A DNA stretch of 64,000 bases. Origin: Axinella damicornis (lineage: Eukaryota > Porifera > Demospongiae > Axinellida > Axinellidae). The position numbers were made by a program, and so were the translations under genes. Shown here piece after piece: positions 7,862-60,402 of the stretch. Where the stretch lies: assembly GCA_963931865.1 (NCBI GenBank), contig OZ007505.1, forward strand, positions 3,702,868 through 3,766,867, in the 5' to 3' direction. The notes under the pieces are model-generated. The model ran no database searches. It saw nothing but the letters and a program-made list of their open reading frames with translations, and was not told where the DNA came from. How positions within the stretch are numbered: the first letter of the stretch is position 1; each line of letters opens with the position of its first letter.

Positions 7862-10421
7862 ATGTCTACCAAGGATGAAGTATGTAAATGCATGCACGTT
7901 GGATCAGCAACCGTATTTGTATCATGTACACCACTCTGATCCACAGCTGTATGATCCAACAGCGAACTATGACAGTGACTCTGACAGTGAGCTGAACAAT
8001 GAAAGGGTTAGTCTTCTCCCCCTTTATATACATAGTTGTCTCTCTCTACCCCATCCATGGGTTATCTCTCCTTCAATAGTCCTTTCCTTCCCCTATAGGT
8101 TTTCCTTTCTGTACAAATTCATACCATCTACAATAGTAAAGTAATGATTGCTTGTCTTGATAACAACAGTGAATGTTCCAAGGTGAAGTTTAGTGCATTG
8201 AGACACGCAATATGTCTCTGTCACTTTCATTTCAGACCCGCTCCTGCAGTTCATCTCCCCCGACCAGCAGCTGCTTGAAAGATGCATTCATCCATAACCA
8301 CCTTGAGCGCAAGGGAGGGCCTCAGTCTGACAGGGGAGGAGCTGCAGCAGGTGCGAGTGCAAGTGGAGGAAAGGTATACAATGGGTACTGGTCTTTACAG
8401 ACTAACAGTTTTACAAGTCACAATTAATGTTTTGCCTAATTTAGATTGCCCACCTGTGTAATTCGTGTCCTTTATAGACAACTGGCGAACTGCAAAGTAA
8501 CACAATTCTACTGTTGTATATTGGATCTAGCTTTTCAAACGATCGTATGGTTTTGTCCTATCAGTAGGCCTGCATACACAGCATAAGATTCCAGAGTCAG
8601 AGTCTTTGCTTGGCGCTCGTACCATGAATACATTCAGGAACTACACGTACAGCATACAATACAGTAGTGCATCAAACTCTTGAATTGCGTACTGAAAGTG
8701 AACAGTAGTACAAACTCACTGCATCAGTGGCATAGCCACTTATTAGTGGTGGAGGCATGCAGCGCTACGCCCACCCAAATTTTAGCTGAGTACAACGATC
8801 TAGGTCACTGCTGCCCGTCTCCCACTGACAAAGCCTCACTGAAGTCCCTTCACTATAGTTGCTGTGTGCTGTTTGTATTCCCTATGGCTGTAGTCAGTGA
8901 TGAACGCATGGACTTGCCTAAGGATTGACCAGGCACATTCAAACATTGGGCCCAGGTTTGGCTATGCTACTGAACTGCATGCAGATCTGAGATCGGTCAC
9001 AGTATAAGTTTGATTGGAAGTGTAATACACTTCGATCGCTTCACTCGCTCAGCTACTGCTCATTTAGTCCAGTGCTCTGTGCAGAGGTCTGACGAACCCT
9101 CACCTCCACTTCCCAGTTGCGTCCATTTCAGCTGCTGCTTTGCGATTGCGTCCACCTTAGCTGCTGCTCCCATATTTGCACCTGCTTCAGCTGCTGCTCC
9201 CCAATTGCGTCTCTTTCAGCCCGATTGCCTCTGCTTCAGCCCAATTGCGTTCGCTTCAGCTGCTGTTCCCGAACGGCATCCGCTTGCAGCCCCAACCATC
9301 CTGGAAGGTTCCAGCCCCTACCCAACGTTCTAGCATTCTTTGCTGAGTTTGAGGTTCGGAGGTTGTAATAAAGTACAAAGGTCACTAGAGAAGCTAGTTC
9401 CTTCCCCCAAACACCCCACTTCAGTTAGAGAGACACACACATAAATCTTACAAGTAGCTTTGCTCACTTCGCTCGGTCAGCTACTTCCCCTCGTTCGCCT
9501 ACGTGAGTAATCCGGCGTCAGCAGCCCTCTGTGCACAACTGCTGCTCCCCGATTGCGTCCGCTTCAGCTGCTGCTCCCCGATTGCATCGATCCGCTTCAA
9601 CTGCTGCTCATCGTTTGCGTCCGCTTCAGCTGCTGTTCCCCGATTGCGTCCACATCAGCTGCTGCTCGCTGCTTGTGTCCGCTTCAGCTGCTGCTCTCCG
9701 ACGTTTCAACTGCTCCCCGATTGCGCCCGCTTCAGCTGCAGCTCCCCGATTGCGCCCACTTCTCAACTGCTGCTCCTGGATTGCATCCACCAGCTGTTCT
9801 GGAAGATTCCAGCCCATACTCGAACATTCTTCGTGGAGTTCGAGGTTCAGGTAGTAAATTGAAGTACGAAGGTCGCGCGTCACTAGTCTAGTCCCGCCCA
9901 TGCATGAACATCCCACTTCCGTTACGCACACACACACACACACACACAAACACACAGTAAAATCTTAATGGTGCAAGTTGAAATTGGTATAGGACATTCT
10001 CTTGAAATGGTCAGAAAGTGTAACCAGTAGTTATTTTCAGCTCTCCACCTGATGTAGAGACCACATTTGTGGCATGGGAGGGCCACGCAGGGAGTGCATT
10101 CCCCCATTCCAGAAGAAGAGAATGGTCAATTGAACTCCCTCTCCTGCTATTTCCATCAATGCAGTGTGAATGTTGCCTTGTGGTTCCTTTTACTCACAGA
10201 AATGTACAGGTAACGGGAAAAAGTGCCTCAAGGAGACTGAGAAACGATGGGATGGTAACAGATACAGCTGCTCTACAAACAAGAAACCAAATCCAAAAGA
10301 ATGGCTGAAGAAGCATAAGCTCTGCTGGCCCTGTGCAAATCAAGACAAGTGTCCAGTAGATAAAATGGCTGCGCTACCACCCAACTATCCTGGTCACAAG
10401 AGTCCAAATCAAGTTGACTGA
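7862..10421 (+). CDS. A1: small cysteine-rich (zinc-finger-like) protein, copy 1
   Basis: Four exons: 7862-7879, 7947-8006, 8236-8373 and 10200-10421, all in phase 0 with good GT/AG sites, encode 145 residues. The N-terminus reads MSTKDE then LYDPTANYDSDSDSE, an acidic tyrosine-containing segment. The middle is Ser/Gly-rich and contains the stretch LERKGGPQS shared with A2. The C-terminal exon holds CTGNGKKC, NRYSC, CWPC and KCPVD followed by LPPNYPGH, so spaced cysteines could bind zinc. Compared with A2, the HKFCKEC segment is altered (KHKLCWPC) and the spacing differs. The start was chosen because A2 has the same six-residue first exon and intron position. I do not recognise the family and its function is unknown. 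Intron 3 (1.8 kb) was enlarged by two copies of the 29-bp-repeat element. Confidence 0.75.
9036..9445 (+). mobile_element. 29-bp-repeat dispersed element, copy 1 (diverged)
   Basis: It starts with TTCACTCGCTCAGCTACT. The core has degenerate units built on GATTGCGTCCGCTTCAGC plus TGCTGCTCC, and the end resembles that of the other copies. It sits in A1 intron 3. The reading frames through the core are artefacts. Confidence 0.75.
9455..9968 (+). mobile_element. 29-bp-repeat dispersed element, copy 2
   Basis: The head is GCTCACTTCGCTCGGTCAGC. About eight 29-bp units follow, then a conserved tail (GGAGTTCGAGGTTCAG, CATCCCACTTCCGT), a CA microsatellite and GTAAAATCTTAATG at the end. Confidence 0.85.
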
Positions 10422-10767: not shown

Positions 10768-11250
10768 CTTCACTCGCTTAGCTACTTCCCCTTCGTTCGC
10801 CCACGTGAGTAATCCGGCGCCAGACAGCTCTCTGTGCAGAGCTGCTGTACCCCAATTGTGTCTGCTTCAACTGCTCCCTAGCTGATTGTGTCCGCTTCGG
10901 CTGCTGCTCCCCAATTGCGTCCGCTTCGGCTGCTGCTCCCCAATTGCGTCCGCTTCAACTGCTGCTCCCCAAACGCCTCCGCTTCAACTCCTGCTCCCTG
11001 ATTGCGTCCACGCACTTTGACTGCTGCTCCCCAATTGCGTCCGCTTTGACTGCTGCTCCCTGATTGCATCTGCTTCGACCTCTGCTCCCTGATTGCATCT
11101 GCTTGTAGCCCCAGCTATTCCAGCCAATGACTTCATGGAGTTCGAGGTTCAGTAAATTGAAGTATGAAGGTCACTAGAAAGTCTAGTCCCACCCCAGGAA
11201 CATCCCACTTCTGTCACAGACACACACACACACACGTTAAATCAATGATG
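10768..11250 (+). mobile_element. 29-bp-repeat dispersed element, copy 3
   Basis: Same head (CTTCACTCGCTTAGCTACTT), 29-bp core units, tail CATCCCACTTCTGTCACAGA and CA run. It lies in the roughly 1.1-kb gap between the convergent A1 and B1 stop codons. Confidence 0.85.
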
Positions 11251-11548: not shown

Positions 11549-14500
11549 TCAAACATGTGATTCTATGTCTATGGGTGTTTCTGGCTGATTGCCGCCTCCT
11601 TGGGTTCCCCCTCCTTGGGATTCCCCTCCTTGGGTTCCCCCTCCTTGGGATTCCCCTCCTTGGGATTCCCCTCCTTGGGATCCTCCTCCTTGGGATTCCC
11701 CTCCTTGGGATCCTCCTTCCTCTTCTTCCTTCTTATCCCATCGGTATAGGGTGAACTTGAACTTGCTGTGGGAATCACCTACTCTCACATCAACCGGGAT
11801 TGCATGACTTATTTGTTCGCGGGCTCCATCTGGTTTTGTGACTTCTTTCGTCTCATAGAATGGCTGACTTTGTGATCTGCAAGCATCTTGTTGTGGCCAC
11901 ATAGGTGGCCATCGGAACTCACTGGCATGGTGATACAAACGACCTTTAGGATGATCTTCAACATGCCGAGGATGTTTATAATTTCGAGCACGGAGATTTG
12001 AAGCATTGCGGTTCACCTGAGCATGGTGATCCAGATAAGCCTTAGGGTCCACTTCCCTAAAGCTAGGAAGAAAAATAGCAATTACCGCTTTGTTATAATT
12101 ATAAGCGTAGTAACTTCCAAATTCAAATTCTTACTACTTTTTGGGAGGGATGTATTCCTCAAACCGATCTCCAACATCAGTTCCATTGATCTCCAATGGG
12201 TGGATGGTTAGAAGAGTAGCAGAATCAGCGATGTAGTCCTCCTCCACAAGTTCAATCAAGATGTTCACTGCATTGGGCAAGGGACTAATCTACTCTGTCT
12301 CTCTCAATATGGCAGAATCTTTACAATATTGTATGTTAACTAAAACTACTTGAATAGACGCCATGGCTACTGTGCATATTTTTCTACTGTGCCAAAAGTT
12401 GTCGTCCAGTGCATGCACAATAATGTCCTATGGATCTGCAAGGAGCTTCTATGGTGATCTCGGTGAACGCAATGATGCATCAACAATGCTTCTAGTGCGT
12501 GTTGAATCAAACAAAATGGCATTGCTACATACAGCTATATATAAACCAGTGATGGAGGATACGTTTCAATCGATACTGCATATGCTGTCAATGTAATACG
12601 GTACACCAAGATGGCAGTACAAGCTTCGAAATGCCATGGAAATGTGATGCAAGTGCTATGGGTCTGTACCCACTGTTCAGCATCCAAATCATCAGCTTTG
12701 TTCTCATCGTCACCTTGCTCTCTGTTTCGTTTCCTTTACAATGGATGGACCGTTAGCCATGCCGCACATCCATCCAACTAAATCGTGAGGATGTTACGCA
12801 CACATATACATACATGTACAAATGCCAGCTTATCAGACTGCAGTTATGTATGTCATCAGCGTGCATCTTACAGAACTCTTCTGCAAATAAACGAAAGTTT
12901 TTGCGTCATCAGTGAACTATAACTTTCAAGACACGCGTGCATGAACCTAGCACAGTGGAGTCTTGGATGGCCACAACAAGGACGGACATGGATCCACTTC
13001 TTCAATGGCTAAAGCGATGGGGGCCTACGTCTCCCACTGTCAATGGGTACAGGCTGGACAGACGGTGTTACAGTACCTTGTGTGAAAATTCCTGTTTAGG
13101 CCTGTGCAGGTACCCCAACTCTTGGAAGCGCACACTGGACTGCATGGGGGTGGGGCTACAACTCGCTTGCGCTCGTCCCACAATGCAATGCATTTCCCTA
13201 CTTATCTTCATGACAGACACTGCAGTCAATATGTGTGGGATACGTGCCTCATGCATAGAGCCTGCAAACAGTGCTGACCCATTCTTGACCCATTCCTGAC
13301 CCATTCCTGGCCCAGCTATTAAATAACTAGGAATACGTATCCGCATAATTGCCTCGCGCGCACGCCGCGGCCGCATGCGCAGCCTGGCCACGTACTTACG
13401 AGTATGATAGATCTCTAGCTAACTTGAATTTGCGAGTGTGGAGCTGAGATAAACATGTCGATTACACTGACTGTTCGACTCCACATGTAGCTGCTCTAGC
13501 TCTGCAAGCCCTGAAGGCCCCGTTCGCTTGTACCCTAGCCTCTGGCTACGCGAGATTATTGTGGAGTTGCAGTATAAACAGATGTCGACTGTTTGACTCC
13601 GTATGTAGCTGTTTGACTCCATATGTAGCTGCTCCAGCTCTGGAGCACCGCGCGCTCGTCCACTGATCTGTTTCTCAAGGTTGTAGATCTCGCACCGTCG
13701 AGCCCTCGCAGCAAATAAAACTCAATTGGGTGGCAGGAAACCCGCAACATTCCTATCAACATTCCTGAGCGTGACATATTCCGGTACGTATGTACGTACG
13801 TATATAGTGAGAAATAGATCCCCCATTCAGAGCCTCGTGCTAATGCGCTCAGAAGCAGGAAAACAATGTTAGGCCTGTTGCTTCTTGAGGGTAATTACTT
13901 CTGGTGGCTCCAAGCAAAATTTATTGGCTGTAACAGTCTATTCAGTAGCTATTTTACATCAGAACAAGCTATTGCCAACACCGTTTTGTGCTCTGGCAGG
14001 GCTGTGGGTGAACAACACACAAGGTGGTGGTCACAGATCTCTGTTGCTGCCCTCAAGTACATTGTGGTTTCCTAGTTGAGTTACCACAAGTTTTAAAACG
14101 TCAGTAGCTAGCTCCAAACCTGTTGTTGCTCTGTACTGTGCGCTGTCAATAGGCCCGATGATGATGTAGTCACTGAGGAGTGTAGGGATATTCTTTTCAG
14201 GATCTTCCTCTTCGTCGCTTTCACCCTCACTCTCTTGTGTTGACTCCTGCTCCCTACCATGGCAATGATGGCAGCATCTTTCCTGCTCCTTTTTCTTCTG
14301 CTCCTTTTCCTCCATCTCTCTTTCTTTCTCCTTTCTTACGGCTTCAAGGCCTGGCCTCCAGATCTCCTCAATTTCAGGTAGAAACTACAAGGACATGATA
14401 TTCCTTATATGGTTAACAGTGGTACATAGTGGTACTTTGGTTGCCATGGAGATTGCTATCGCTACCTCCATGTATTTACACTAGCTTGTGCCACCATCTA

Positions 14501-17500
14501 CAACATTGGATACTATGTTGCCCTATAAGATGCAAGTCTCTGTTGCCATACCTATTAATGGTCAACAGCTCTGTTACAATCATGCTATTAAGCTTGTGAA
14601 CTAAAGAAGCCAAGTGGGTATATACCATAGTTCTTTACCACTAGCCACAATGTCTGGTTACCATGGATACCAAATCAAAGCTCACTATACTTGCCAGGTT
14701 GGTAATCAGGTATTGGATGGTGTTGTTCTAGAGCACATGCATGCCTCATGCACTGGCACCCATCCAGCAAGAGTTCTAAATGAGGTGCTGGTATAATTAG
14801 ATTACTTCACCATGTCAAATGTATCATTGCTACACTGGCTAGTAGCTACGGCTAGTTGCTTCCTCTAGCGTAGCTAGTACTATTGGCAGGCCATTAGTTT
14901 GACTGTAGTACTATGAGCTTCTCCTGTGGATCGGTTGTGTCTAAATCTCGTCACCACTAGTAGCACTTCCTGTGGGTGGAGCATCATAAACTGCAGTCCG
15001 ATGAGTGAGTCTCTCACTTATGGAACATAATTTCTCAGAATACACAATGCAAATGGAGCTGGGTTGGTAGTGCTGTCTTTGTCACCACTACTACGTCTAC
15101 GGGCTATACTGTCAAGCTCACATGACGTTGGCGATGTAATGTGACATATCTCTGGTAAACACACCGGATAATCATCCTGGGCTTTTGCCAGAGTATCATT
15201 CGAGGTCAGGATAGTGACCACTTGCAAGGAGGAGTCGATGTCCCTCTTGACAGGAAGCTCAGGGTTGTGATAGAAGGGGCTGAAGTTGATGTAACCAACC
15301 TGAGACAGGAGAAAAGAGATAGACTTGTTTCACCGACCGATAGACATCTATCCTTAGAATCACGGCAACTATAATGCATGTTGAATCATGTGTTTGTCAC
15401 ATGCTACTTAACCCTCCCATGAACCATAGGGTCGCAAAGAAATATAATACTGCTCCCGATGTCCCAGCCCTTCCACTTTCTGGACCACCGATTTCCAAGT
15501 CTAAAGCTCTTTTTGCTGTTAAAAACGGTGTGCTGGGAGAAGGCTCTCTTCTGGTCTGTCTTCAGACGTTCATGATACACAGATGACAATCAGTGATACA
15601 GATGTTACAAACTGAGCTGAGAAATGAGATAAATTGTGGGGACCATGCAGTTGACATTTGAACCCACACCGGCCTTTGAATATCTCAACTGGAGTGAGCT
15701 GTCTCGTCAGGGAGAAGCTCGGCCTTCTCCCACCACATGACCAGGAGATCTCATCATAGTCCCCCAACCACACACTGTATAGTCTACTTGACACTCACCC
15801 GGTTAAACAGCCTGCCAAGGGCATACGGAAAGCCAAACGAAGGAGAGCCAAACGTCACACACAGAGCTCCAAAATTCTCCCCTTCTGACTGGTCCCCAGA
15901 CTTGTTCCCCACTGACTTCACCACTCTGGACGCCAGTCCCAATACAACCCCTCGAATGGAGTCAGGGAGGATCTAGAGAGGAACACGTACAGAAATCCTG
16001 AGCTGGTAAACATCCAACTCAGTAGACAGTGTGTATTGTATGCCCAAACCATTTGCCATTTGCAGTATGAAAGCAGGGGAAGGCCTGCTGTGAATAGTGG
16101 ACACACTACCCAAGAGCCTAGTCTGCAATCATGCACCTCACCCTAAGGCGCTCGGCAATAACCCCATGCCTGCCTGCATCAGAAGTCAATTCATAGCTGC
16201 ATGACCAGACAGTAATTGCATGGAGGACTAACCAGCATTTTTTCATCTTCCAGGGTCTTGTGCTCCACTCCCAACCAAGGAAGTTGATCATCTGCACTCA
16301 CAGGAAATGTCCACTCAAGATCTGCCTTCTGATCTGCAGTGAAATTATCACACAAGCTACAAGTAGCTTTGCTCACTTCGCTCGCTCAGCTACTTCCCCC
16401 TCGTTCGCCTACCATGAGTAATCCGGCGCCGGACAGCTCTCTGAAGAGCTGCTGGTCCCCGATTGCGCCCGCTTCAACTGCTGCTGCATGCTCGCCGCTT
16501 GCGTCCGCTTCAGCTGCTGCTCCCGATCGCATCCACTTCGGCTGCTGCTCCCCGATTGCGTCCGCTTCGACTGCTGCTCCCCGCATCCACTTGCAACCCC
16601 AGCTGGATTCCAGCCCAATGTTCTCGAACAGTCTCCGCGGAGTTCGAGGTTCAGTAAATAAATTAAAGTACGAAGGTCGCACATCACTATAGTCTAGTCC
16701 CGCCCCATGAACATCCCACTTCCGTCAATCACAGACACACAGACACGTAAAATCTTAATGTATTGATAGCTAGTTGTTAAAGCCGATTGCTGACAAAATG
16801 CCGATTGATAATGGACTCCATGTAAAACCTGCTCCCTAATGCTAAGAGAGCTACACTTTCAAGATCAGCATAGTGATTTCATAACCGGCTAACACTATAA
16901 TCATGTCTTTTTCACTGTTGACCCTAGTCTTGTTCATATACCTTTAAATGGAGTCAAGTTGCGACCTCATGTTGTTAGTTAACGTGCCCTCCGGAAATCA
17001 TAACAATTACAACTCAAATCACCTTTGTCCCAAATCCGCCTCTTGAAGAGGTTCAGGCTCCTGCTCTCGGCATCATTTAGCACCTTCACCCATTTCGAAA
17101 TCTGCACCGCCTTAAACACCAGTCCAAGCCCACCATCAGTCCGGAACAGTCTCATCACCATGAAGTCGAGATTGCTGCTGATACGAGGACCCCAGAGGGA
17201 CAGCCAGGGGATCGCTGGGGTGTACTGTTCATGACGAAGACTACATTCAAATGATATTTTGGCAATTGTTTTTGATCCAAGTGCATCAGCATGGGGACCG
17301 ATGCACCAGAGAATTGACCAAGTCAGACCCAGGACAACCAGGCAAAGGAGAACGATGTTTGCAATTCTTACCAGGGAGATGAGGCGTAGGGTTGTGAAGA
17401 TGCAATATACTTGCTCTCCAGACAGTGGCCAGGAGCGAACTAGTGTCTCTCCCAAAGTCTGAGGGCAGAGAAAGGTTGAGTTGAAGTCAGTGAAGTAGAT

Positions 17501-18052
17501 AATTGTCGCGATCAGACCAGCAGTAGAAAAAATCCATTGGAGGACAAGCTTCCCTACGTAGACTACATAAATATCTTTCCCATTGATGAAGGCATTCTCA
17601 AGCTGCTCAAAAATGATGGCATTCTTTACAGAATAGTCTCCGCTAGAATCTTCTCTGAGTCGGTCCAGATCGGCAACGAGTTTGAAGAAGTAATCGAAAT
17701 TACCGCCGTAGTTGTTCAGCCAGAGGTAGTGCGGTATGAGGATTAATATGGCTTGGACCACCATGAACACGGGGTAGTACTGGCCGGGAGGGAGACTGGA
17801 CGAGCAGAAGTTATTGATGTAGTCCTGAACGCCACCTAAATTCTCGCTGACAGTCGCGTTCTGAGACACACACTGCACTCCACTGCCGCGGATAAATTCT
17901 GTGATGGTGTCGACGGCCGCCAGTCCGATGATGGCGGAGACCACGAAGACCACAATGGAGTCCCAGAAAAACTCGCGCGGCACCAGTCCCCTTCCTTCTT
18001 CATTCTCTGGCCTCCCTTCTAGACCCTTGAGTTCGACACCACCGACAGACAT
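11549..18052 (-). CDS. B1: LRRC8/pannexin-like four-TM protein with novel cytoplasmic region, copy 1
   Basis: Seven exons on the minus strand, phases checked: 17023-18052, 16233-16333, 15799-15972, 15165-15299, 14120-14384, 12135-12267 and 11549-12062, giving about 783 residues. Exon 1 starts at the ATG at 18052. It has four hydrophobic segments at about residues 31-50, 92-112, 158-177 and 219-250. The first extracellular loop has Cys61, Cys83 and a possible N-glycosylation site; the second has Cys186 and Cys207. After TM4, NLDFMVMRLFRTDGG... VLNDAESRSLNL follows the pattern of LRRC8 just before its leucine-rich repeats (family knowledge). No leucine-rich repeats follow: exons 2-7 encode an unfamiliar region with TFGSPSFGFPYALGRLFNR, VGYINFSPFYHNP, a charged helix, SDYIIIGPID and HSKFKFTLYRWDKK, then a GGESQ-repeat tail. 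Intron positions match B2 exactly. A large-pore channel is inferred, not shown. Confidence 0.8.
11586..11718 (-). repeat. 15-bp coding repeat, pentapeptide GGESQ tail of B1
   Basis: On the minus strand about eight 15-bp units encode GGESQ, GGGSQ or GGGTQ in frame. They lie between KKEEEE and the end QPETPIDIESHV. The paralogue B2 has no such repeat, so it expanded after the duplication. Confidence 0.9.
12270..14119. other. Long B1 intron (exon 5 to 6) with repeat fragments
   Basis: Bases 12440-12600 resemble 3825-3960. Bases 13470-13630 hold a direct repeat of GACTCC(A/G)TATGTAGCTG. No convincing gene was found on either strand. Confidence 0.5.
16355..16765 (+). mobile_element. 29-bp-repeat dispersed element, copy 4
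   Basis: Head GCTCACTTCGCTCGCTCAGC, core units with GATTGCGTCCGCTTC, tail GTTCGAGGTTCAG, CATCCCACTTCCGTCA and GTAAAATCTTAATG. It is inserted in B1 intron 1, and B2 intron 1 lacks it. Confidence 0.85.
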
Positions 18053-22617: not shown

Positions 22618-23577
22618 ATGGCTAGCAAGGATGAGGTACAGTTGACTTATTTGCATGCATGCAAGATCGGCAGCCTGAATTACACCATGTACTCTTGTGT
22701 ATTTCCACAGCGGTATGATCCAACAGTGAACTATGACAGTGACCCTGAAGTTGTGCTAAACAATGCAAGGGTTAGTCTTCACTCTCTCTCTCTCTCTCTC
22801 CCTCTCTCTAACATACCGTTTTGCATAATTCCCTCCTTTTCCATAAGTAATTCACTTTTCTCTGTACAAATTCATAACATTTGTACCATAGCTATATTGC
22901 GAGCTGTAGCTCATCTCCCTCCCTCAATCTTGAGAAATGTAGCTGTACACCACAAACCTCTAATTCACATTGATCACTGAAAGTCTCCCTCGACCTCTTG
23001 TACAACCAGGAAACCTCCGCCAGTTCATCTTCTTCCACCAACGGTTGTCTTAACGATATGTACATCTACAACCAGCTTGAACGCAAAGGAGGGCCTCAAT
23101 CCGGCAGAGGAGGAGCTAATGGGAAGAAAAATGGAGGGAGAGGGAACAAGGTAGGAAGGAAGCAAGAAGGGAAGGAAGAGGAGGATCAAGAGGGAAAAAA
23201 AGCAGCTGGGGAAGAAAAGGTATTTAAGTTGACATGTTTATAGCTGTCTAACTGGGATGTTGCAAATGGAGGTTGTTCCCAAGCCTGTAGTCCAGGAGGG
23301 GGGTGTGTAACATTCTGAGAGTAAGCCATTGGCCAGTTAGTAACTCGATCAACATGTTTCATCCTACCAGACTTGCCAAGGCTGTACAAAACCTGTACAG
23401 CTATATGATAACAACAGATACAGCTGCTCTGACCCTGCAAATGGCAATTTCCACAAATTCTGCAAGGAATGTGCTTATGGTGAAAAAGGGAATCCAGGCT
23501 GTCCAGCTGATGGTTGTCAGGGAACACTGCTTGATCCCAACTATCCAGGCCACGAAACAGCAAACATGGTTGATTAA
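22618..23577 (+). CDS. A2: small cysteine-rich (zinc-finger-like) protein, copy 2
   Basis: Four exons, all phase 0: 22618-22635, 22711-22770, 23010-23219 and 23371-23577 (stop TAA), giving 164 residues. It starts MASKDE, then RYDPTVNYDSDPEVVLNNAR. A Ser-rich stretch and LERKGGPQSGRGG follow, then a long basic/acidic linker (KNGGRGNKVGRKQEGKEEED) absent from A1. The last exon has a cleaner cysteine pattern than A1: CQGC, RYSC, HKFCKEC, GCPADGC, then LLDPNYPGHE. This looks like a RING- or PHD-like zinc-binding domain, but I cannot assign it to a named family. It lies convergent to B2 with a 1.05-kb gap, the same arrangement as A1 and B1. The lysine- and glycine-rich linker suggests nucleic-acid or nuclear association as one possibility only. 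Confidence 0.8.
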
Positions 23578-24630: not shown

Positions 24631-27600
24631 TCACGAATCATGATCACTAAAATCATCCAACATTGGTCCCTGCTCTTTTGGCTCCATATCTATTGTCGTA
24701 GCAGAAGAGGCGAGAGAAGGTGCGGGCAGGCCTCCTTTCGGTTTATTCTTGGTGTAGAAGGCAAACTTAAACTTGCCATGGGATTCTTTGCCTACTGGTA
24801 CCTCCCAAGTGAAAGAATTGACATACTTTCCTGCATCCCCCGGAACACCTACTGGATGAGACCAAACTAGTTCTTTTTCTTTAACTAGATGAGCCTTCAG
24901 TACTTTGGGGTCCGATTCAAAGAACCCACTGTAAGCAAGAAAGAGAAAGACACATAATCTCTTGCCTTGGCAACCAACATCTTACCACTATGATATCACC
25001 CAAAAGCCTTACAATTTTTCTGGAGGGACGTACTCCACAAACTTTTCCTCCACATCCACTTCACCAATCTTCATAGGGTGTACAGTTAGGAGAGTCGCTG
25101 ATTCAGCAATGTTACGCCTCACATGCTGCATTAAGATGTCCACTGTATGGGGTAAAGGCATTGATTAAGTCTTGCACAGATTTTGAAAGGTCTAAGTTTG
25201 ATTTGCCCACTGGACACAATGCCATGCACATGTGCATGGAGAGTCTGGGCACATGTGCATGGAGAGTCTGGGCACATGTGCATGGAGAGTCTGGGCACAT
25301 GTGCATGGAGAGTCTGGGTACATGTGCATGGAGAGTCTGGGCACATGTGCATGGAGAGTCTGGGCACATGTGCATGGAGAGTCTGGGCACATGTGCACAT
25401 GGAGAGTCTGGGCACATGTGCATGGAGAGTCTGGGCACATGTGCACATGGAGAGTCTGGGCGCATGTGCACATGGAGAGTCTGGGCACATGTGCACATGG
25501 AGAGTCTGGGCACATGTGCATGGAGAGTCTGGGCACATGTACATGGAGAGTCTGGGCACATGTGCATGGATAGAGAGTCTGGGCACATGTGCATGGAGAG
25601 TCTGGGCACATGTGCATGGAGAGTCTGGATTATAACCCAAAGAATGGTAGACTTACTTCAGAAGTACCACCACTTCTTCATCTTATACTAGTGACAACTG
25701 TACTCCTGGCAAATTCACTTTCAGAATGATGCCTTTATAGGTCACATGTCTCGCCTCATAGAAATCTCAGCAGACTCTGATTGCATCCCGCGGCACTAGA
25801 ACAGCTAGCCTCATTTCCAGGATGCTTGTAGGTGGCTAGCTCATCCCCAAGTAACACATACATACGTTCCAACGATAGTCAAAACGAGTAATGAAAGCCA
25901 ATGTGTTCCCTGGAGAGGCCACTTGAATGCTTGTCACTAAAGTGTCCATTCCTTGCTTGTCACCAAAGTGTTTCCTTGCTTGTCACCAATTCATTGGCTC
26001 CTTGCGCATGCTTATCGCCAAAGTGTCCCCTAAAATTTAATAACTAGAGTGTATTCGTTTAATACCTACCGGTGCACCTATCTCTCAATCTAAGATCCAT
26101 AGTGCACTGACATGGACACATGAATCCCCAAAAAGGATTGTTGGGACCTATATACACTTGAGCTGCTTTCCAATGGGTTAGCCAAGCTGAGCTGGTCTTT
26201 TCACAGTGACATGTTCCCAACACTACAGTAATTTGATATCAAATGTACAGTATAGTTGTACATCTGGACAACTGTTCAACCAGGCACCATTTTTTTATGT
26301 AGTGTTAAGGTTACGATGTACAATTCGATTAAATGTATTCTGATACCGGAAGCGCGTTCAACATGCAATTACCGTAATTGTCCATTCTTTTTTTGGCTCG
26401 CATTTTTGGTGATCCGGGTGATCTGGGTGATCCGGCAGTCCGGCTTTTACACAAGCCCCTCTTGAACCGTATAAGGGACTAAGCATTTGGGAATGCCAAT
26501 TACAACCAGTTAGCTAACCCTTCTTACATTTGAAGCCATGCTTTAACTGGTACATACCCTAGCATTTCAGCAAATGTTGGTCTATGTATAGCTAGGTCAG
26601 AGCATTGCTTGAAATGTGAGGGAGCCGCATGGGAACTGTGGCAGAGCAAGAGGACAGACACTTGAGTGTGTTACTTGTGACTGTTATCTTTGCTTGAATT
26701 AGTACCTGTACTACTGTGACCTGTAGCTACTCTAGTTTTACGCTAAAAGGATTATAGGTAGTGAATTCATTCAGCCCACAACACGCAGGTAGTGGAGTAC
26801 GGTAGGACAGCAGTTCACCTTGTTGTACATGTGGGGCTGTGATTTTGTTGCCAATAATGTAATTATACTCCTCTCCATTCTAGGACAGTAGCTTACCCTG
26901 TTGTGGGGCTTGCGATTTTGTTGCACACTCCTCTGTGTCCTGGGACAGTACACAACTCATGCACCCTGTTGTGGGGGCTGTGATCATATTGTCTGCTCCT
27001 CTACATCCTATAGGAAAGTACAATAGCTCACCTTAGGCTGTGATTTTGTTGTCTGTTCCTCTCTGTCCTTGTTGTGGCTGGGGCTGTGATCTAGTTGTCA
27101 GAGTGTACTCCTCTCTGCCCTCGTCTACAGAAAAAGCTCTCACTATAGAACCATCAGCAGTTTGTGCCTGTTTTGACGCTTGAAGGTACATGCTAAGTTC
27201 GAACTTAGCTTGGTGTTTGGTGCAGTGAAGCTGTGTGTCATGGAATTGTTAACATCCCATGATTCCCGTCAAGTCACATTATTTTGTGGTGTGTTTTGGT
27301 TGAAAAGACCAGTATAGACTGGACAGACTCAGTGCATGTGTCCTTGTTACTTGTGACTTGAATTACGAAGGGTTGGTCTTATAGTATGGCTTCAAGTGTG
27401 TTGGGCATGCAAGAGGGGATGAGTGCTTTGTGACTTGAATTACAAAGGGTTGGTCTTTCAAATGTGTTGGACATGCAAGAGGGGCTGAGTGCATGTGTTG
27501 CTTTGTGACTTGAATTACAAAGGGTTGGAGGTTATAGTATGGCTTCAATTGTGTTGGGCAATTCAAGAGGGGGATGAACTGGTTACTTTGTGACTTGAAT

Positions 27601-30600
27601 TACAAAGGGTTGGAGGTTATAGTATGGCTTCAATTGTGTTGGGCAATTCAAGAGGGGGATGAACTGGTTACTTTGTGACTTGAATTACAAAGGGTTGGTC
27701 TAAGTATAGGTTATATAGTATGGCTTCAAATGTGTTGAGCAAGAGGGGGACAAACAGGGCCAATGTGTTACTTGGCTTTAAATGAGTTAGGCAGAGGAGG
27801 TCCGACATGTTTATGGACGTACACGGATCTCCACATCACATTTGATTGGTAAACAGCTGAAAGACCAAACATGGCAACAGCTCTCTTTCTGTTTTGACAT
27901 GCCATCGCTTGGAATAGACTTAGAGTTGGAAGCTTGCTTTTTGGAAAGTTGGACAATTCCTACTCTTCTGTGATGCTGCACAGGTATACCTACACAGCAA
28001 TGCAGTCAAACTCAGAGTGCAATAAAAGTCCCTCTGATGGGTCGACTTTGAGGTAGATACAAATGGTAGCTGTCAATGGGTGAAATCACTCTCACTGTCT
28101 GTGTTGCCATGCAGTGGCCCCTAGGTATTTCTGTAGCATTAGGTGTGGATAATGCACTTGCCATAGTTTAGCTAGGGCAATACATGTTTACCAAAGATGG
28201 GAGTGGGTGTTCTTTTGAGTGTTTCTACATTCATGCATGGAAGGTGCCCATGTTTGTGGTTTTGCGTCAGTTAGCATCCGCCACTCTCCACTGCAGCTGG
28301 GTTTGCTGCTACCTAGGTTGAAGAGTTGTCTTCCCAAGTACACTTGGGCAGGTTCCGTAGAGCCCTCAGAACAAATGGCAATGGTGAAAGCACTGGTGTC
28401 AGAATGGGTATTATTGGGTGAGTATGAGCAACCCCTATTTTGCTAGCGTGGATGACGAGTCCTAAGGACAACAACCCCCAGGACCTTGGTTAGTCCAGCA
28501 CCCCTGTTAGCCCAAGAACCCCTGTTAGCCCAGAACACTGGAATTACACCAGCAGTCAAAGGATTATACAGGGGCTGCCTAACCCAACCTGTTGATGATT
28601 TGTCATCCTTCTTGTCATACTTCTTGTCGATGGGACCAATCACTATGTAGTCACTCTTGATGGGTACAATTTTCTTTTCTTCTTCCTCTCCCTTTCTCTT
28701 CACTTCCATGCTTTCACCATCTTTTGCTCTTCTTTCTCGCTCTTCCTTCTCCTTCTTTAGTCTTGCTGTAATGCCTGGCTTCCAGATCTCTTCTATTTCT
28801 TCCTTAAACTTTGAAGGAAAGGGTGCATGTACTCAAAGTTAATGACAATGCCTACAGAATGCTGCGTTGATGCAGAATGAGATTCATAGCCTCATTGCAG
28901 GTCTCCATCCCCCAGCTTTTGTTGCTTGTGCAAGCGGCAAAGGCTCGGAAGTGGAAGCCTGGGAACACGGCTATGACTTTCAATGGCCAGTTATAATGAT
29001 GTAGTACTGAAGGGTGTGACCCATTGTGGAATGCATGTAGTGCATGCATTGTGTAGCTAATTAGTGCACTCTGGCAATAATATGAGAAATATCTCTGGCA
29101 GATAATGCACTCGCCTTTGGTTTATGCATTACCTCGCCTGGTATCTTGCCATCGATCATTACTGTATATTGCCCTCACATAATAATTAAAATGCACTGTT
29201 CAAGTATTGCCTGTGCCATGGAACAGAGAGTAGCTACATAGCTTGCTTTCAGTTCGTGTAGCTATGCCGCAATATTGTAGACCACAGGCTCTGCCAGTTA
29301 TGTACAAACCTCAAAATTTGTTGCCAGGATATCATCGGATGTGAGAATGGTGACCATTTGCAAGGTGGTGTCAACATCTCTCTTAACGGGACAATCAGGA
29401 TTGTGGTAGTAGGGACTGAAGTTGATGTAGCCAACCTGTGACAGGGAAAGAATGAGGGAAAATGTGATCAAGTCCACTTGAGTAATTATAACTGGAGTAG
29501 GAGTACACAATATCACCGAAAAGTCCAGGTGTACAGATAGACGTATATAGGATTGCTTGTGGAATTGGAATGAGGTACGGGAATGAAACCGTAGAGCACA
29601 CAGAAGAAAGTGTGATAATGTAGGAAATGGCCGTAGTATCTCTGAGGATCAAGTTTGATTGCACCCTACTGCTCACTCTTGTCCATTGTCTTTCCATGGA
29701 TGACTCCGTTGAGATTGAGATCACAGTAGCCATAGCACAGCGCACTACTACCATAGCATTACTGCTCATTACTAGCTATAACCATCTCCCAATAAAATGT
29801 AAACCATGAACTTAGTTTATTGATGGATACCTGACCTTGATAATCAGGAATGGTAGGTTTAAAACCTCTTTGATGGCATGTCATAGCTACGAAAGTCAGG
29901 AAACTTCGCTAACAATGACCACTTACCCGATGGAATAGCCTGCCAAGAGCACAGGGGAAGCCGACCGAAGGAGAACCAAATGTCACACAAAGAGCTCCAA
30001 ACCTCTTCTGTGATCTGGCAGCAAACCCCAGGACAATCCCTCGAATAGACTTAGGAAGGATCTGACATGGTGAAATCAATGTGTGTGAGATTCAATACCT
30101 GTATATACTGTCCGCAACAACACAGCATTCACTCCATCAAACCCTTGTTACTAAGCACATGTGTACATGCCACATGATGGTGGATGAGGCTGGGGGGGGG
30201 GGGGGGGGGGGGGGGGGGTAGATGGTTAGTTGTCTCCCTCAGGTGATTCTTTGACAAGAACAGCTGACAAGATTTCTCTATTGCCGCTGAGATCAATCGT
30301 TGATTCATGCAACTTTAAGTCACTTGCATGTAACACATGATTGTACGTAAGCCATCTGGAACTGCAGATTTAAGTGAACATTGGTGTATTGCATTTTGAG
30401 TTTGTGTTTCGCGATTTGTGTGAACCAGAATCAGAACCATAAGTGAGTGCTCTTTGTCCAGTCCCTTGAAGTTGGTCTTGATAGACTACAACTGGTGGGA
30501 ATGTGGAATTACTGGTACCCACCACTGCCGCATCAGGACCAGGACAGTGAGTATATGAAGTGCAGGTACCTTGTTTCTGTACTCCTGCAAATCATAATTT

Positions 30601-32316
30601 GGACTACGTCCCTCAGCTGCTCTGTGGGGTCAATGACAAAACAATAGTAGGTACAAACTAACCAGCACTTCATGATCTTCCAGCTTCTTGTGTTTAATCT
30701 CGTCGGTGGGAAATTTCCACTTCAGGTCGGCTGTCTGATCTGCAGTGAAAGATGATAGAACACATGCAATCTGTATAACCTGACTCACTGATACAGAAAC
30801 CCAATTTTTTAGCAGATGTTATCTCTATAGCCTGGTATAAATTGACACATACAATTGTAATAATTGTGGCTTTGTTTGCCCACACACAACATGTGACGTT
30901 ACTCACGTGACAAAATGTCCCAGGCTTGCTGAGAGTAATTACTTAGGCGAGGTTCTACTATAATTGGGTGAGCGTGAGCAAGCCCCACACTAGTACGTTG
31001 TAGTAGAGTACCCCCTACTGTAAATCTGATTCAATAATGTACAGAAGTGAATGGGCAAGCCTTGTATGTAAGTGCAGTTGATAAAAAAACCCCTGTATTT
31101 TGTACTACAAGTCACCTGAGAAATCCGTATTAGTAGTGCTGGTCACGCGACAAATCTGTATCAGTACTACAAGACATGCGAGAAATCACTGCAACTCATG
31201 TGCGCTATACTGGAAGTGATCCACACTGGAGTCGGTTTGGGGTCTGCATGGGGCCGAGATTATGAGTTTTGTGGCAGAGACTTAAGCTGGTATACTGACT
31301 ACTTTTGCACTCCTGAAGAGGGCTGCTTTACATCTCTGTACTTCCGGAAGTTGAAGTTGAACTTGTCCATATACTCATGCATCCCATCTGGAATGGACAG
31401 CTGCCGTACAACTGCCAGTTCTTTGTGTGTCTCCGCCTTATGCCTCGTACGCAGGTCTTTTCGCCCCAGCGTTTACAGCTTACTGTACTAAGGATGGGTT
31501 GGATACCAGAAATGAATATATTGTTGCCAAGCAAGCTACGGTAATGCACGTTTGCGGAGTTCATTGGTGGAGGAATGTGCAATGAAATTCCAGGTTTGTA
31601 TGATAAAATCAGTATCTCCATAGTACAAAGCTGTCCAGGAAAATAGAAAATATCACTCGTTTGTTGCCTTTGGCATGTTACTCATGCTTAGTACTCGTAA
31701 CAATACTACAGCAACAGACTCGTGATATTTTCCGGTATAGTTTTGTGATACTTATATAGTATCAAATATGCAGAAGACAAAAGCAAGGAGCAACAAATGA
31801 CACCGGGAAGGAAGGGCTGAATAGTTATACTGACATCACCACTGATGCCAACAATGTACATGTACTATCACAAACTTCCTATGACCTCGCTGACACTCAT
31901 TATCTCCTATAGCTAGGTGGCTAAAATGCATGCAGCTAGCTATATAGCTTGCTCACACTCACCACATTTATTTTGGTACAGAACATAATAGTGCTTCAAG
32001 ACTATGTTGCATTGCTAATTTGAAGAGCTCATCAAACCAGTGTGAAGCCAGCAGCATGTACATGTACCACCAAGTGAGCACTTAAGGTAGGAAACACGGC
32101 ATCGGCGAAATCGCGCAATTTTGCTCATGAATAATTAATGAGATGACGTCACTCGCATACGGTTATTTAGAGTTATTGATCTGTTTACGTTTTCCCATGG
32201 CGGCAACCGGAATAAACAAGGGGGGCTTCTCTCTTTGATGCGGCTAGCGGCCCTTTCGAGTTTCAAATCGGTACTCTGATGTGGCCGTGCGGTACTTTGA
32301 AGATTTGTTTGAACAC

Positions 32317-32347
<31 letters not shown>

Positions 32348-34569
32348 GTAAGAAGCTATTCTGGCTTATTGAATGTAACGATGGGCTATCTGAGGGTGAA
32401 TAGCTAGGTGGAGTGAGCAGGAATGTTTGTGGGTCTGCTGAAGTGGCCGAAGAACAGCCTGGAAAGTGAACAGCCTCCGACAGCTCCCTGGGCAAGGTAC
32501 TCTAGAGAGTTGACCTTTCGGCATTACAGGCCCCGCCCATTTTCGTGTTAGGGCGAATTTGGCTGGTTTGGTAGCTGGACTGGGCTGGTGAGAGGGAGTA
32601 GATGTGTGGCCAAAACTCGGTAACCGAGAGGTGAACGTGGAAAAGCATCCCTATTTTTGCAGGGGGTAGGTTGACCTTTTGGAAACTGGCCTTGGCTTGA
32701 GTCGGTTTTAGTTGGTGTGCGTGGAATTTTTTTTGAAAGCCTAGGGTAGCCAAACCTCTGTTTTTGAGGGTGGCAGTGAGTTTTGGGCTGTAGCCTGCAA
32801 GTGAGGAGAGCAGGTGGTAAATCCATCCGTAGTTTTTGGGCCTGTTTTGTGTGTGTATTGATGATGGGGTCAGAGTGTGGGTGGGGCCTTGGAGAGGGTC
32901 CAAATTTTCAGTTTCGTAGAGGGCCTTAAAATTGAGTTTTAGGCCATTTTCAAGCAGAGGGAGCAGTTTGATGCAAAGTATTGCTGAAACTTGTGTACGC
33001 TTTGATGCTGCCCATTTATCCATCAACTTGGTTTCGGAGATCGCGGTACCCATGTTTCCTACCTTAAGTTAGAGTCTGCTGTACATATTATCGTGCAGAG
33101 GCTTAGCCTAGATGTCTTCCCTGGATCTAGGCACTCCGTAACGTTGACTAGTAGCTAGCTGCATGCCTTTGCATTTTGTCGTGCATAGCAAACAGTCTAT
33201 AGCTTAGTAACGTGTTATGACTGACTGTACAATCGATATACACCCCTCGTTACTTCCACTCTTCAATCTTCATTTGACTGTAATCAAGGGGAGGTCTAGA
33301 GGTCTGTGTGTCATTGGGACATTAATTCTTTGCCCTTCCATCTGGATACTTTGGATGATCTGCAGCAAGCCAGGAGACGAGGTGCATCTGTTGGTTGAAA
33401 TACTTGGGACTCACCTTACCAGGTTACAAAGTGAAGGAGTGACCAAAATTTTAGACAATTTGCAGTCTCAGAGATCCAAGGGACTTCATTTCCAAATGGC
33501 ACAAGTGCACTCTATTGTAGCAATCTCATTTACCTTTATCCAGAATATGCCTCTTGAGGAGGTTCAATCTTCGACAATCAGCATCGTTCAAAACCTTAAT
33601 CCTCCCTAAAATCTGTACTGCCTTCAACACCAACCCCAATCCACCATCTGTCCGGAACAGTTTCATCATCATAAAGTCAAAATTGGTACAGATGCGAGGG
33701 CCACTGAAGAAGGTGAACAATGTTAACTTCGTCCGGATGTAGTCGGGTTGGAGGCTGCATTCAAATGAGATCTTAGCTATTTCTTCTGACCCAAGTTCTG
33801 TAGCATGAACACAGCAGCACCAGATCAGAGACAAACCCAGCCCCAGGACAGAGAGGCAAGTCAGAATGATGTCTGCAATTCTAATCAGCGAAAGGAGATG
33901 CAGAGATGTGAAGACACAGACTACTTGATCTCCAGGCAGGGGCCACGATGGAGCCAGCGTCTCTTTCAACCTCCGGGGACAGACAAAGTTTGCATTAAAG
34001 TCGGTAAAGTAGGCAACCATTGCGATAAGACCAAGTGAGGAGAAAGCCAACTGAATGAGAAGCTTTACGCAATAGAGCCGAAAGATCCCTTTCTCATCCG
34101 TAAAGGCCATCTCGAGCTGCTCAAGGATAAGGGCGTTGCCCTTGCAGAAGTCTCCGCTAGACTCTTCTCTGAGGCGATCCAACTTAGCAGCGAGCTGAAA
34201 GAAGTAATCGAAATTGCCACCATACTGGTTGAGCCACAGGTAGTGCGGTATGCCGATTAGTATGGCGTGGACCACGATGAAGACCTGGAAGTATTGGCCT
34301 GGAGGAAGGCCCGACGAGCAAATACCGTTGACATATTTCTGAGCGTCTCTCATATTCTCACGGGTGGTCGCGTTCGTGGAGGTACATGCACACTCCACAG
34401 TACTGCCGCGTACATATTCTGCGATGGTGTCGACAGCGGCCAGTCCAATCATAGCGCACACCACACAGAGTACAATGGAGTCCCAAAAGAACTCGCGCGG
34501 TAGCAATTTCCCATCTCCTCCCTCTGGCCGCCCCTCCGCACTTTTCAGAATGTCTCCAGCGCCGGACAT
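24631..34569 (-). CDS. B2: LRRC8/pannexin-like four-TM protein with novel cytoplasmic region, copy 2
   Basis: Seven minus-strand exons: 33534-34569, 30663-30739, 29927-30061, 29310-29435, 28589-28808, 25013-25142 and 24631-24928, giving about 673 residues. Exon order, phases and junction residues match B1 one for one. Exon 1 starts at the ATG at 34569 and has four hydrophobic segments. Loop cysteines are Cys60, Cys62, Cys84, Cys187 and Cys208. The post-TM4 segment TNFDFMMMKLFRTDGG... KVLNDADCRRLNL resembles LRRC8 before its leucine-rich repeats. Cytoplasmic landmarks are TADLKWKFP, TFGSPSVGFPCALGRLFHR, VGYINFSPYYHNP, a Lys/Glu helix, SDYIVIGPID, ESATLLTVHPMKI and HGKFKFAFYTK. The C-terminal tail is non-repetitive, ending DDFSDHDS. 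Large introns hold tandem repeats and a TTAA-flanked element (32086-33063). A large-pore anion or metabolite channel is the best guess. Confidence 0.8.
25218..25628. repeat. 24-27-bp minisatellite in B2 intron
   Basis: About 17 units of GGGCACATGTGCATGGAGAGTCT, with 27-bp variants containing GTGCACATGG. Open frames of up to 176 codons run through it on both strands; they are artefacts of the period. Confidence 0.95.
26770..27125. repeat. Degenerate tandem repeat in B2 intron
   Basis: Units of roughly 80-100 bp with TGTGGGGCTGTGATTTTGTTG and CTCCTCT.. TCCT..GGACAGTA recur about four times. Confidence 0.7.
27350..27720. repeat. About 85-bp tandem repeat in B2 intron
   Basis: Five units share TTTGTGACTTGAATTACAAA, GGGTTGG, TATAGTATGGCTTCAA and GTGTTGGGCA. 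Two neighbouring units (about 27507-27680) are almost identical. Confidence 0.85.
30193..30219. repeat. Poly(G) tract
   Basis: An uninterrupted G run of more than 25 bases in B2 intron 2. Similar G or C runs occur at 51283, 54841, 56443, 56503, 57413 and 60405. Confidence 0.9.
32086..33063. mobile_element. TTAA-flanked element, terminal repeat GGTAGGAAACA
   Basis: TTAA at 32082-32085 and 33064-33067 flank inverted ends GGTAGGAAACACGG and CC(C)ATGTTTCCTACC. It lies in B2 intron 1; B1 intron 1 lacks it. A 183-codon minus-strand frame (32502-33053) starts just inside the right end. Its product is not one I recognise and may be chance or captured sequence. A T run of about 26 bases lies at 32320-32345. 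Confidence 0.8.
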
Positions 34570-36044: not shown

Positions 36045-36525
36045 CAATACATTAAGATTTTAACGTGTGTGTGTGTGTGTGTGTGTCTGTCTGTGCGTGA
36101 CGGAAGTGGGATGTTCGTGGGGCGGGACTAGACTAGTGACGCGCGACCTTCGTACTTCCGAATATACTGAACTCCGCGAAGAATGTTCGAGCGCTAGCGC
36201 TGGAACAGCTGGTGGTACAAGCGGATGCAGTCGGGGAGCATGCAGGAGTCGAAGCGGACGCAATCGCGAGGAGCAGCAGTTGAAGCGGACGCAATCGGGA
36301 AGCAGCAGCCGAAGCGGACGCAATATAATCGGGGAGCAGCAGTTGAGCAATCGGGGACCGGGAGCAGCTGCCGAAGGCTCAAGCGGACGCAATCGGGGAG
36401 CAGCAGCTGAAGCGGACGCAAGCGGCGAGCAGCAGCTGAAGCGGACGCAATCGGGGAGCAGCAGCTGAAGCGAACGCAAATGGTGAGCAGCAGTTGAAGC
36501 TGATCGATCTATGGTTGCACGCCAT
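36045..36525 (-). mobile_element. 29-bp-repeat dispersed element, copy 5 (reverse orientation)
   Basis: Read on the minus strand it has the core GATTGCGTCCGCTTCAGC units, the CATCCCACTTCCGTCACGCA tail, a CA run and GTTAAAATCTTAATG, matching the other four copies. Reading frames across it are artefacts. Confidence 0.85.
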
Positions 36526-38601: not shown

Positions 38602-39606
38602 TCAGACGTGCTCTAGTTTATCATGTTTTGAATACTTCAGTGGCCTGATAAAGGCAAACAGTATGAGTAGAAAAATCCGTACACATGCCAGCAATACCAC
38701 AACTCCCAGCAAGACAGCTGCAAATATCGCATTTCGATTGTTGTCTTCCTTATTCCAGTGCTCAACAACAACGCCTGTAAGAGCCCAAATGACTGTAGGA
38801 TAAAATACAACCACAAAGCGAGTGAGGCGATCCAGTACCGTGTTCTCGAGTACAAAATAAACCAAAACGATCGCAGCAAGTAGTGCCAAGATGACCGTTC
38901 CAGCGTTGGTCTCAAGGGCAGTATTCAGTCCTTGTCCTCCACCCGACCCACTTCCCAATACCTCAGCAGCAGCTGGAGTCGGGGAGTAGTACTGAACCAC
39001 AATTCCAATGTTAAGGCAGGTGGCGATAGTGACCCAAGAAGCGTACAGACCAAGTCCATTGAGCACAACAATGCGAGTGAACCACAAGTCGCATCGCAGA
39101 CCTTCTCTCTCCAAATCAGGTGTATTGCGATAAAGGTTGTATGAGAGTATGCCCACTGTCCCATAGAGTAACACAAATAGCACAACAATGAAAGCAAGTG
39201 AAACTTGTGCCAACACATTACCCCACGCATAAAGCCAGGCAATATTGAGGGCACACACAGCTGTGAAAGCAACATACACTCCCCAGAATATAGGGCGACG
39301 CGTACTGGGCCTACACGGACACACAAACGACCAGCCATACAGGAGCCACACACCCTGCCACGTGTAAATCAGTCCCCATATGGAAAAAACCCATCCAGCT
39401 GGGGTAACCTGGGTTTGGAACAAATCTCCTGTTCTGTTTTGGAACCCAAATCTCCTGACATCTCTTGTGGCGAATATATTAATGATAATATCGACAACGA
39501 AGGCCACAGTAACCAACGCGAGAAGTGCCACTTCAAACACCACCTTTGTTTTGGAATTCGTTGGGTAGCAGCGCTGCCGTTGCTCACGAAGTGGTTGCTT
39601 CTCCAT
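38602..39606 (-). CDS. Multi-pass membrane protein, TspO/MBR-like
   Basis: A single uninterrupted frame of 334 residues from the ATG at 39606 to a stop at 38602. It has about eight or nine hydrophobic segments. After the first segment comes the motif VTPAGWVFSIWGLIYTWQG, which I associate with the TspO/MBR (tryptophan-rich sensory protein) superfamily. A Gly/Ser loop (LGSGSGGGQG, near residue 220) separates the two halves, and the tail FIRPLKYSKHDKLEHV is basic and cytosolic. Classical TspO proteins are about 160 residues with five helices, so this is one of the longer related forms. In that family, binding of porphyrins or sterols is reported; no ligand can be inferred here. No intron is evident, unlike its neighbours, which may indicate retroposition or simply a single-exon gene. 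Nearby sequence shows no obvious partner. Confidence 0.7.
   Translation of the reverse strand: MEKQPLREQRQRCYPTNSKTKVVFEVALLALVTVAFVVDIIINIFATRDVRRFGFQNRTGDLFQTQVTPAGWVFSIWGLIYTWQGVWLLYGWSFVCPCRPSTRRPIFWGVYVAFTAVCALNIAWLYAWGNVLAQVSLAFIVVLFVLLYGTVGILSYNLYRNTPDLEREGLRCDLWFTRIVVLNGLGLYASWVTIATCLNIGIVVQYYSPTPAAAEVLGSGSGGGQGLNTALETNAGTVILALLAAIVLVYFVLENTVLDRLTRFVVVFYPTVIWALTGVVVEHWNKEDNNRNAIFAAVLLGVVVLLACVRIFLLILFAFIRPLKYSKHDKLEHV

Positions 39607-40722: not shown

Positions 40723-60402
<19,680 letters not shown>

Follow-up and report, generated by a model that had tools for sequence, protein, structure and literature searches.

Sponge genes encoding a putative large-pore channel of the innexin/pannexin/LRRC8 superfamily joined to a conserved cytoplasmic domain

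A pore module joined to a conserved C-terminal region

Two tandem paralogs, B1 and B2, lie on the minus strand of a 64,000-nucleotide stretch of the genome of the sponge Axinella damicornis (contig OZ007505.1, positions 3,702,868 to 3,766,867; hereafter the window) and encode proteins of 783 and 673 residues, respectively. The best explanation, in which we have fairly good confidence, is that B1 and B2 belong to a sponge family within the innexin/pannexin/LRRC8 superfamily of large-pore channels and carry a conserved cytoplasmic domain fused to the pore. That domain, of approximately 250-300 residues, occupies the place of the LRRC8 leucine-rich repeats. The most striking point, missed in the preliminary description, is that a pore fold familiar from other animals occurs in a phylum reported to be without it; it is joined to a cytoplasmic domain that we have not found described. 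Innexins and pannexins are reported as absent from sponges, or as not found there, in five papers (PMC10280926, PMC9949713, PMC6391747, PMC9816575, PMC8769644), and among the papers listed from the open-licence literature no report of a sponge member of the superfamily or of such a tail was recognized.

The C-terminal region is real and is part of the channel genes. Each gene has seven exons, and all 12 introns are GT-AG, with phases 1,0,0,0,1,2 and no internal stops. Chance is excluded because the exon set recurs in the two tandem genes and in ten further aligned models from the same genome. The preliminary description of this DNA had proposed that exon 1 is joined to exons 2-7, which was borne out by a relative, P0020, whose 699 residues form a single open reading frame (ORF) containing both the pore and the tail, on a contig of 2522 bp with the label 'lgn'; because the genomic copies have six introns, P0020 is read as a spliced transcript. 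The four C-terminal motifs quoted in that description are present, in order, in both B1 and B2.

The genome searched comprises 226.5 Mb in 120 contigs, the window being on a contig of 22.6 Mb. Searched with the pore, it has 22 matches at 17 places. With the P0020 tail as the query there were 27 at E<=10 (weakest, 2.25), each of them on the strand of a pore exon, 3' of it and at a distance of no more than 6441 bp; together they account for 11 of the 17 pore places. That the P0020 query found no tail at the other six weighs against the fusion, and spliced models restored a tail at two of those six (L044 and L045). Spliced alignments at 14 further loci produced ten usable tail-bearing models (L036-L045), single exons of which may be affected by the false small exons of automatic splicing; five of the ten show phases 1,0,0,0,1,2, the program having no prior knowledge of the phases. 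The aligned tails number 13, from B1, B2, L036-L045 and the external P0020, so that 12 of them are from genes of this genome, and L049, with a single weak tail match (E 2.25), is a possible thirteenth tailed gene in the genome.

The pore module has the predicted fold of a large-pore channel

A protein search with exons 1-4 of B1 and B2 as the query (8000 candidates scored, E<=10) yielded 87 proteins, the two of the window and 85 from public contigs, several of which apparently carry two or more members, e.g., four on one contig of 648,692 bp. Exon fragments, which misaligned when mixed in, were left out of the pore-family alignment used. Exon 1 had been described as encoding four membrane segments, with cysteines in both outer loops and a KVLND..xRxLNL pattern after TM4 resembling LRRC8, and all of these features stand. 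Hydropathy averaged over the 87 sequences places the membrane segments at B1 residues 33-51, 94-112, 169-187, and 233-251, and an AlphaFold2 model of the B1 pore has helices at 29-55, 89-127, 160-185, and 221-251. Two cysteines in each outer loop (Cys 61 and 83 in loop 1, Cys 196 and 217 in loop 2) are invariant in 87/87 sequences, and TM2 ends in PHYLW nearly throughout the family (P in 86, H in 87, Y in 79, L in 86, and W in 87 of the 87). The block following TM4, LDFhhMRLFRTDGGLG..FK.VQI...KVLNDxxxRxLNL, is present and widely kept across the family.

The predicted B1 fold matches the LRRC8 pore and intracellular linker fold, the top-ranked fold alignment being with LRRC8A; this alignment stops at B1 residue 326 and LRRC8A residue 401, a few residues short of the LNL motif in both proteins. 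The pannexin pore fold is also matched, with identities of 12-17% in the pannexin fold alignments. A different predicted fold had been named as refuting the preliminary description, and the fold obtained is the LRRC8/pannexin one. INX-6 is not among the 50 fold matches listed, which is no argument against innexin kinship.

The tail may be a degenerate methyltransferase-like domain

As the preliminary description held, the tail is without leucine-rich repeats: no Pfam leucine-rich repeat was found in the tails, and hhalign of the tail to typed-in LRRC8A repeats gave 0.4 standard deviations (SD). The same description had found the tail unmatched. No significant match indeed emerged, and what has to be amended is that a degenerate motif order like that of a class-I methyltransferase, weakly supported, can be discerned. 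The blocks of the aligned tails begin with [LI]P.S[IV]RG...G, followed, in divergent paralogs, by ALDISFGS.GY...LARAF..V..VNF.PFY.NE; the middle consists of a short block ending in D-[ED]-[DL], then DFIVIGPID and a helix with T[VA].L.L; and the end of GCVLLTI.P..I.GK, F..Y.PP, and CG.S...F.F..Y. This is the order expected for a class-I methyltransferase. The NCBIfam model ovoA_Cterm, a methyltransferase, matches 3 of 12 tails exactly at the motif-I-like block (E 0.015-0.11, far below the cut-off), and in a PDB search with a profile of four tails (L042-L045) the two best matches, again on this motif, are to OvoM (E 0.25) and CbiT (E 0.46). Compared with class-I S-adenosylmethionine (SAM) methyltransferases such as the OvoA C-terminal domain/OvoM and CbiT, the tail is alike in RALDIGFGSxGYxxeLARAF and the next block, with later blocks fitting the order, and differs in having Asn where those enzymes have an acidic residue following the second strand, and a degenerate glycine motif in B1 and B2.

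Several results weigh against this assignment. In one of the three tails matched by ovoA_Cterm a rhamnosidase model does better (E 0.0034), and DNA polymerase chains come next in the PDB list of the four-tail profile (E 0.64-0.88). The 12-row tail profile matches a methylase (E 0.13), which we take to be of the SPOUT class, i.e., other than class I, and a riboflavin kinase (E 0.33). Pfam on the 12 tails gave two chance-like matches, in one member each, to SAM_5 (0.17) and a coronavirus peptidase (0.21), and general methyltransferase consensus sequences reached 1.7 and 2.8 SD, scores that 3 and 2, respectively, of 60 shuffles equalled. Two- or three-row tail alignments gave nothing usable against Pfam and PDB, and second and third protein searches with the tail brought up nothing beyond fragments and P0020.

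That the 12 members have no meaningful Pfam match, and that the methyltransferase matches are short and insignificant, with unrelated models equal or better in places, would suit a tail with an entirely novel fold, or a scaffold, unrelated to methyltransferases, a reading to which we give slightly less than an even chance. It has to contend with the coincidence on one motif of the ovoA_Cterm profile and the PDB chains OvoM and CbiT, all methyltransferases, and with a later block order that fits a methyltransferase. Taken together, the methyltransferase matches make a degenerate class-I methyltransferase-like domain plausible, though each is insignificant alone, and we regard the chances of it as about even.

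The pore is nearer to pannexins and innexins in sequence

By profile comparison the pore sequence appears to be nearer to pannexins and innexins than to LRRC8, although LRRC8 gives the best fold match. Profile searches of exon 1 had been suggested as a check on an LRRC8/pannexin relationship, and a match to innexin and pannexin was obtained: across the wider family at E<=1, Innexin (PF00876) is matched by 65/87 sequences (best 1.7e-7) and Pannexin_like (PF12534) by 41/87 (best 9.7e-5), and 21 of the 87 carry a precomputed PF00876 label. The 87-row profile retrieved three sequences from the PDB at E<=10, every one pannexin-2, and hhalign of the pore profile to innexin scored 5.9 SD above shuffles. 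PDB sequence searches with B1 alone or with a B1+B2 profile gave nothing meaningful, and Pannexin_like scores B1 at 10.8-11.2 bits, below its 25-bit cut-off.

On the other side of the account, B1 itself reaches only 20.8-21.0 bits for Innexin (Pfam gathering cut-off 25), B2 exon 1, searched by itself, matches no Pfam family at E<=1, and with LRRC8 as the best fold and pannexin as the best sequence match only an approximate place in the superfamily can be assigned.

LRRC8A was also tried by sequence, and was rejected: against the 78-row pore profile its hhalign score was 17.7, and 18 of 60 shuffles scored equally high.

The LRRC8/pannexin-type pore of the preliminary description therefore holds in fold, and LRRC8 does not hold in sequence, LRRC8A scoring no better than shuffles. 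If B1 and B2 were LRRC8 homologs, i.e., volume-regulated anion channels in which the repeats have been swapped for another sensor, the fold would be accounted for; we consider this unlikely, in view of the LRRC8A sequence result, the 11 of 25 bits reached by B1 for Pannexin_like, four rather than six outer-loop cysteines, and a tail devoid of leucine-rich repeats, the last two being differences of the sponge family from LRRC8/VRAC (the volume-regulated anion channel) in general. Pannexins (PANX1-3) are a chordate family, unlike the sponge proteins, whose TM2 bears PHYLW, and to our knowledge they have no comparable cytoplasmic domain. The sponge proteins resemble innexins (PF00876; e.g., Caenorhabditis elegans INX-6) in the TM2 end, the cysteine pattern, and the four membrane helices. 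They differ from them in the long conserved tail of B1 and B2, in scores below the Pfam cut-off, in the missing YYQW, and in belonging to a phylum reported without innexins. YYQW is the innexin signature at the TM2 start, and it is absent from B1 (QYYPVF) and B2 (QYFQVF).

Probable function as a single-membrane release channel

Outer-loop N-glycosylation sites occur in 84 of the 87 sequences. Between the loop-2 cysteines there are sites in 52/87 versus 15.4 +/- 3.2 in shuffles, and the cytosolic TM2-TM3 loop has fewer sites than shuffles (9/87 versus 32.8); the glycosylation site of PANX1, N255, is in the same outer loop, loop 2. Loop 1, with sites in 41/87, has no more than shuffles (36.5 +/- 4.4), and all of these counts are descriptive, the 87 sequences being related and not independent, both of which temper the argument from glycosylation. 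With that caution, the predicted outer-loop sites favour a nonjunctional, pannexin-like release channel.

Outer-face glycans are held to block docking, yet among innexins that have glycosylation sites there are seven known gap-junction formers (PMC8769644). Gap junctions are reported to be lacking in sponges (PMC10280926). The seven exceptions, the standing of Innexin as the most-matched Pfam family (65/87), and the two invariant cysteines in each outer loop speak for true gap-junction (innexin) subunits, by which hemichannels of two cells would dock and couple the cells. The glycosylation sites in 84/87 sequences and the lack of the YYQW motif in B1 and B2 speak against such subunits, and we think it quite improbable that B1 and B2 are of this kind. 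Because of the glycosylation sites and the reported lack of sponge gap junctions, the family would most likely function as a single-membrane release channel in which the tail acts as the gate or as a sensor.

In such a channel six to eight subunits would assemble into a ring, an extracellular cap would be braced by disulfides linking the two outer loops, and N-glycans on the outer face would stop two hemichannels from docking, so that the pore would open to the outside as in pannexins and could release ions or small signals, e.g., ATP. Below the pore would hang the cytoplasmic domain, which would gate it. In the most speculative step, which we hold to be about as probable as not, the tail would be Rossmann-like with a decayed cofactor site, and would more probably sense a metabolite or partner than methylate.

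The fullest version of this proposal, that sponges have an expanded family of this superfamily, with innexin/pannexin sequence, an LRRC8-like pore-plus-linker fold, and a fused decayed methyltransferase as metabolite sensor, is put forward tentatively, at somewhat less than an even chance. If true, the plan of a large pore plus a large cytoplasmic regulatory domain would predate the chordate LRRC8 family, the fused tail would be a new control mode for such a pore, and sponges, whose bodies have neither neurons nor gap junctions, would have in this channel a candidate means of releasing signals. A sponge family that combines innexin/pannexin sequence with the LRRC8 pore-plus-linker fold bears on the reported absence of these proteins from sponges, and it provides a named gene set with which the neuron-free coordination of contraction, feeding-current arrest, or osmotic responses in sponges can be tested.

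Exon organization of B1 and B2

That exons 2-7 are a separate gene or decayed remnants outside the channel, as the long, self-contained exon 1 and the repeats within introns might hint, is highly improbable in the face of exons that are all open in both genes, GT-AG sites with consistent phases in both, 27/27 tail matches downstream of pore exons, and a single P0020 ORF covering both parts. The B1 and B2 models were hand-checked, automatic splice models guided by P0020 having inserted false small exons. Identity between B1 and B2 is 61% in exon 1, 64% in exons 1-4, and 53% in the tail.

All exons are on the minus strand. B1 exon 1 (17023..18052) encodes the N-terminus and the four-pass pore module with its post-TM4 linker helices (residues 1-343), and the C-terminal region begins in exon 2 (16233..16333) with a DLxWxF block, at GT-AG sites and a phase shared with B2, and has counterparts in the aligned paralogs. 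Exon 3 (15799..15972) encodes LPDSIRG...FGALCVTFGSPSFGFPYALGRLFNR, the methyltransferase motif-I-like block, at the equivalent place of which three paralogs have the weak NCBIfam ovoA_Cterm matches. Exon 4 (15165..15299) encodes VGYINFSPFYHNPELPVKR, which in a Rossmann-like core would correspond to the second strand, with Asn for the acidic residue, and P0090 and P0091 have a closely related exon 4. Exon 5 (14120..14384) encodes EIEEIW, a charged low-complexity linker, and SDYIIIGPID; exon 6 (12135..12267), VNILIELV...ATLLTIHPLEINGTDV...EEYIPPKK; and exon 7 (11549..12062), FRWPP...DSHSKFKFTLYRW, a Gly-Gly-Ser-Gln repeat tail, and the stop, position 11549 being the final base of the stop codon. 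P0089 is a close relative of exon 7.

In B2, exon 1 (33534..34569) encodes the pore module, exon 2 lies at 30663..30739, and exons 3 (29927..30061) and 4 (29310..29435) encode FGSPSVGFPCALGRLFHR and VGYINFSPYYHNP, respectively. Exon 5 (28589..28808) encodes EIEEIW and SDYIVIGPID, exon 6 (25013..25142) encodes ATLLTVHPMKIGEVDV, and exon 7 (24631..24928) encodes SHGKFKFAFY, then the stop.

Both genes are accompanied by tandem repeats. A 15-bp repeat of 8.2 copies at window positions 11595-11717 codes for the B1 Gly-Gly-Ser/Thr-Gln repeat tail, which is shorter in P0089, and the B2 intron directly upstream of exon 6 contains a 23-bp minisatellite (25226-25628, 17 copies, 94% matches). A similar 29-bp tandem unit (CTGCTGCTCCCCGATTGCGTCCGCTTCAG-like) occurs at 9536-9796, 10842-11104, 16448-16592, and 36219-36500; one of these places is within B1 intron 1 and one is reverse-oriented, and the unit resembles a dispersed element with internal repeats.

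Family members and other features of the genome

In a tree of 92 pore sequences, B1 groups with P0003 and P0004 (support 1.0), and B2 is sister to these (0.84). A local expansion of 13 further pore-gene places lies at 13.12-13.77 Mb of contig C7 (L036-L040 and L042-L049), and beyond this cluster there is one pore-gene place on C14 and one fragment on C6. Searches of GTDB prokaryote contigs and of IMG/VR confirmed no relative.

Elsewhere in the window, a 361-residue open frame at 38602-39687 (-) encodes an apparent polytopic membrane protein with no Pfam match at E<=1, and a 316-residue open frame at 47093-48043 (-) has repeated [VL]YDN motifs resembling tyrosine-phosphorylation docking sites. 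Two similar cysteine-rich frames with a common PNYPGH motif, at 23344-23577 (+) and 10170-10421 (+), are on the strand opposite B1 and B2; the former has a weak zinc-finger match, the latter none. No Rfam family reached its gathering score within the window.

Silicatein-like sequences mark the source as a siliceous sponge, most probably a demosponge. A search of the genome with human cathepsin L gave 49 matches, and exon clusters resembling cathepsin L and silicatein lie at C2:12.05-12.18 Mb and C4:5.26-5.31 Mb, some matches having in-frame stops. Serine for the active-site cysteine is a mark of silicateins, the sponge spicule proteins (PMC6233156). Among 13 short cathepsin-like stretches that were read, the active-site cysteine is replaced by serine in eight (GQCGASYAFS, GQCSSSYAFS, etc.) and kept in five, and one stretch compared with solved proteins had cathsilicatein (2vhs) and silicatein alpha (6zq3) as its top matches.
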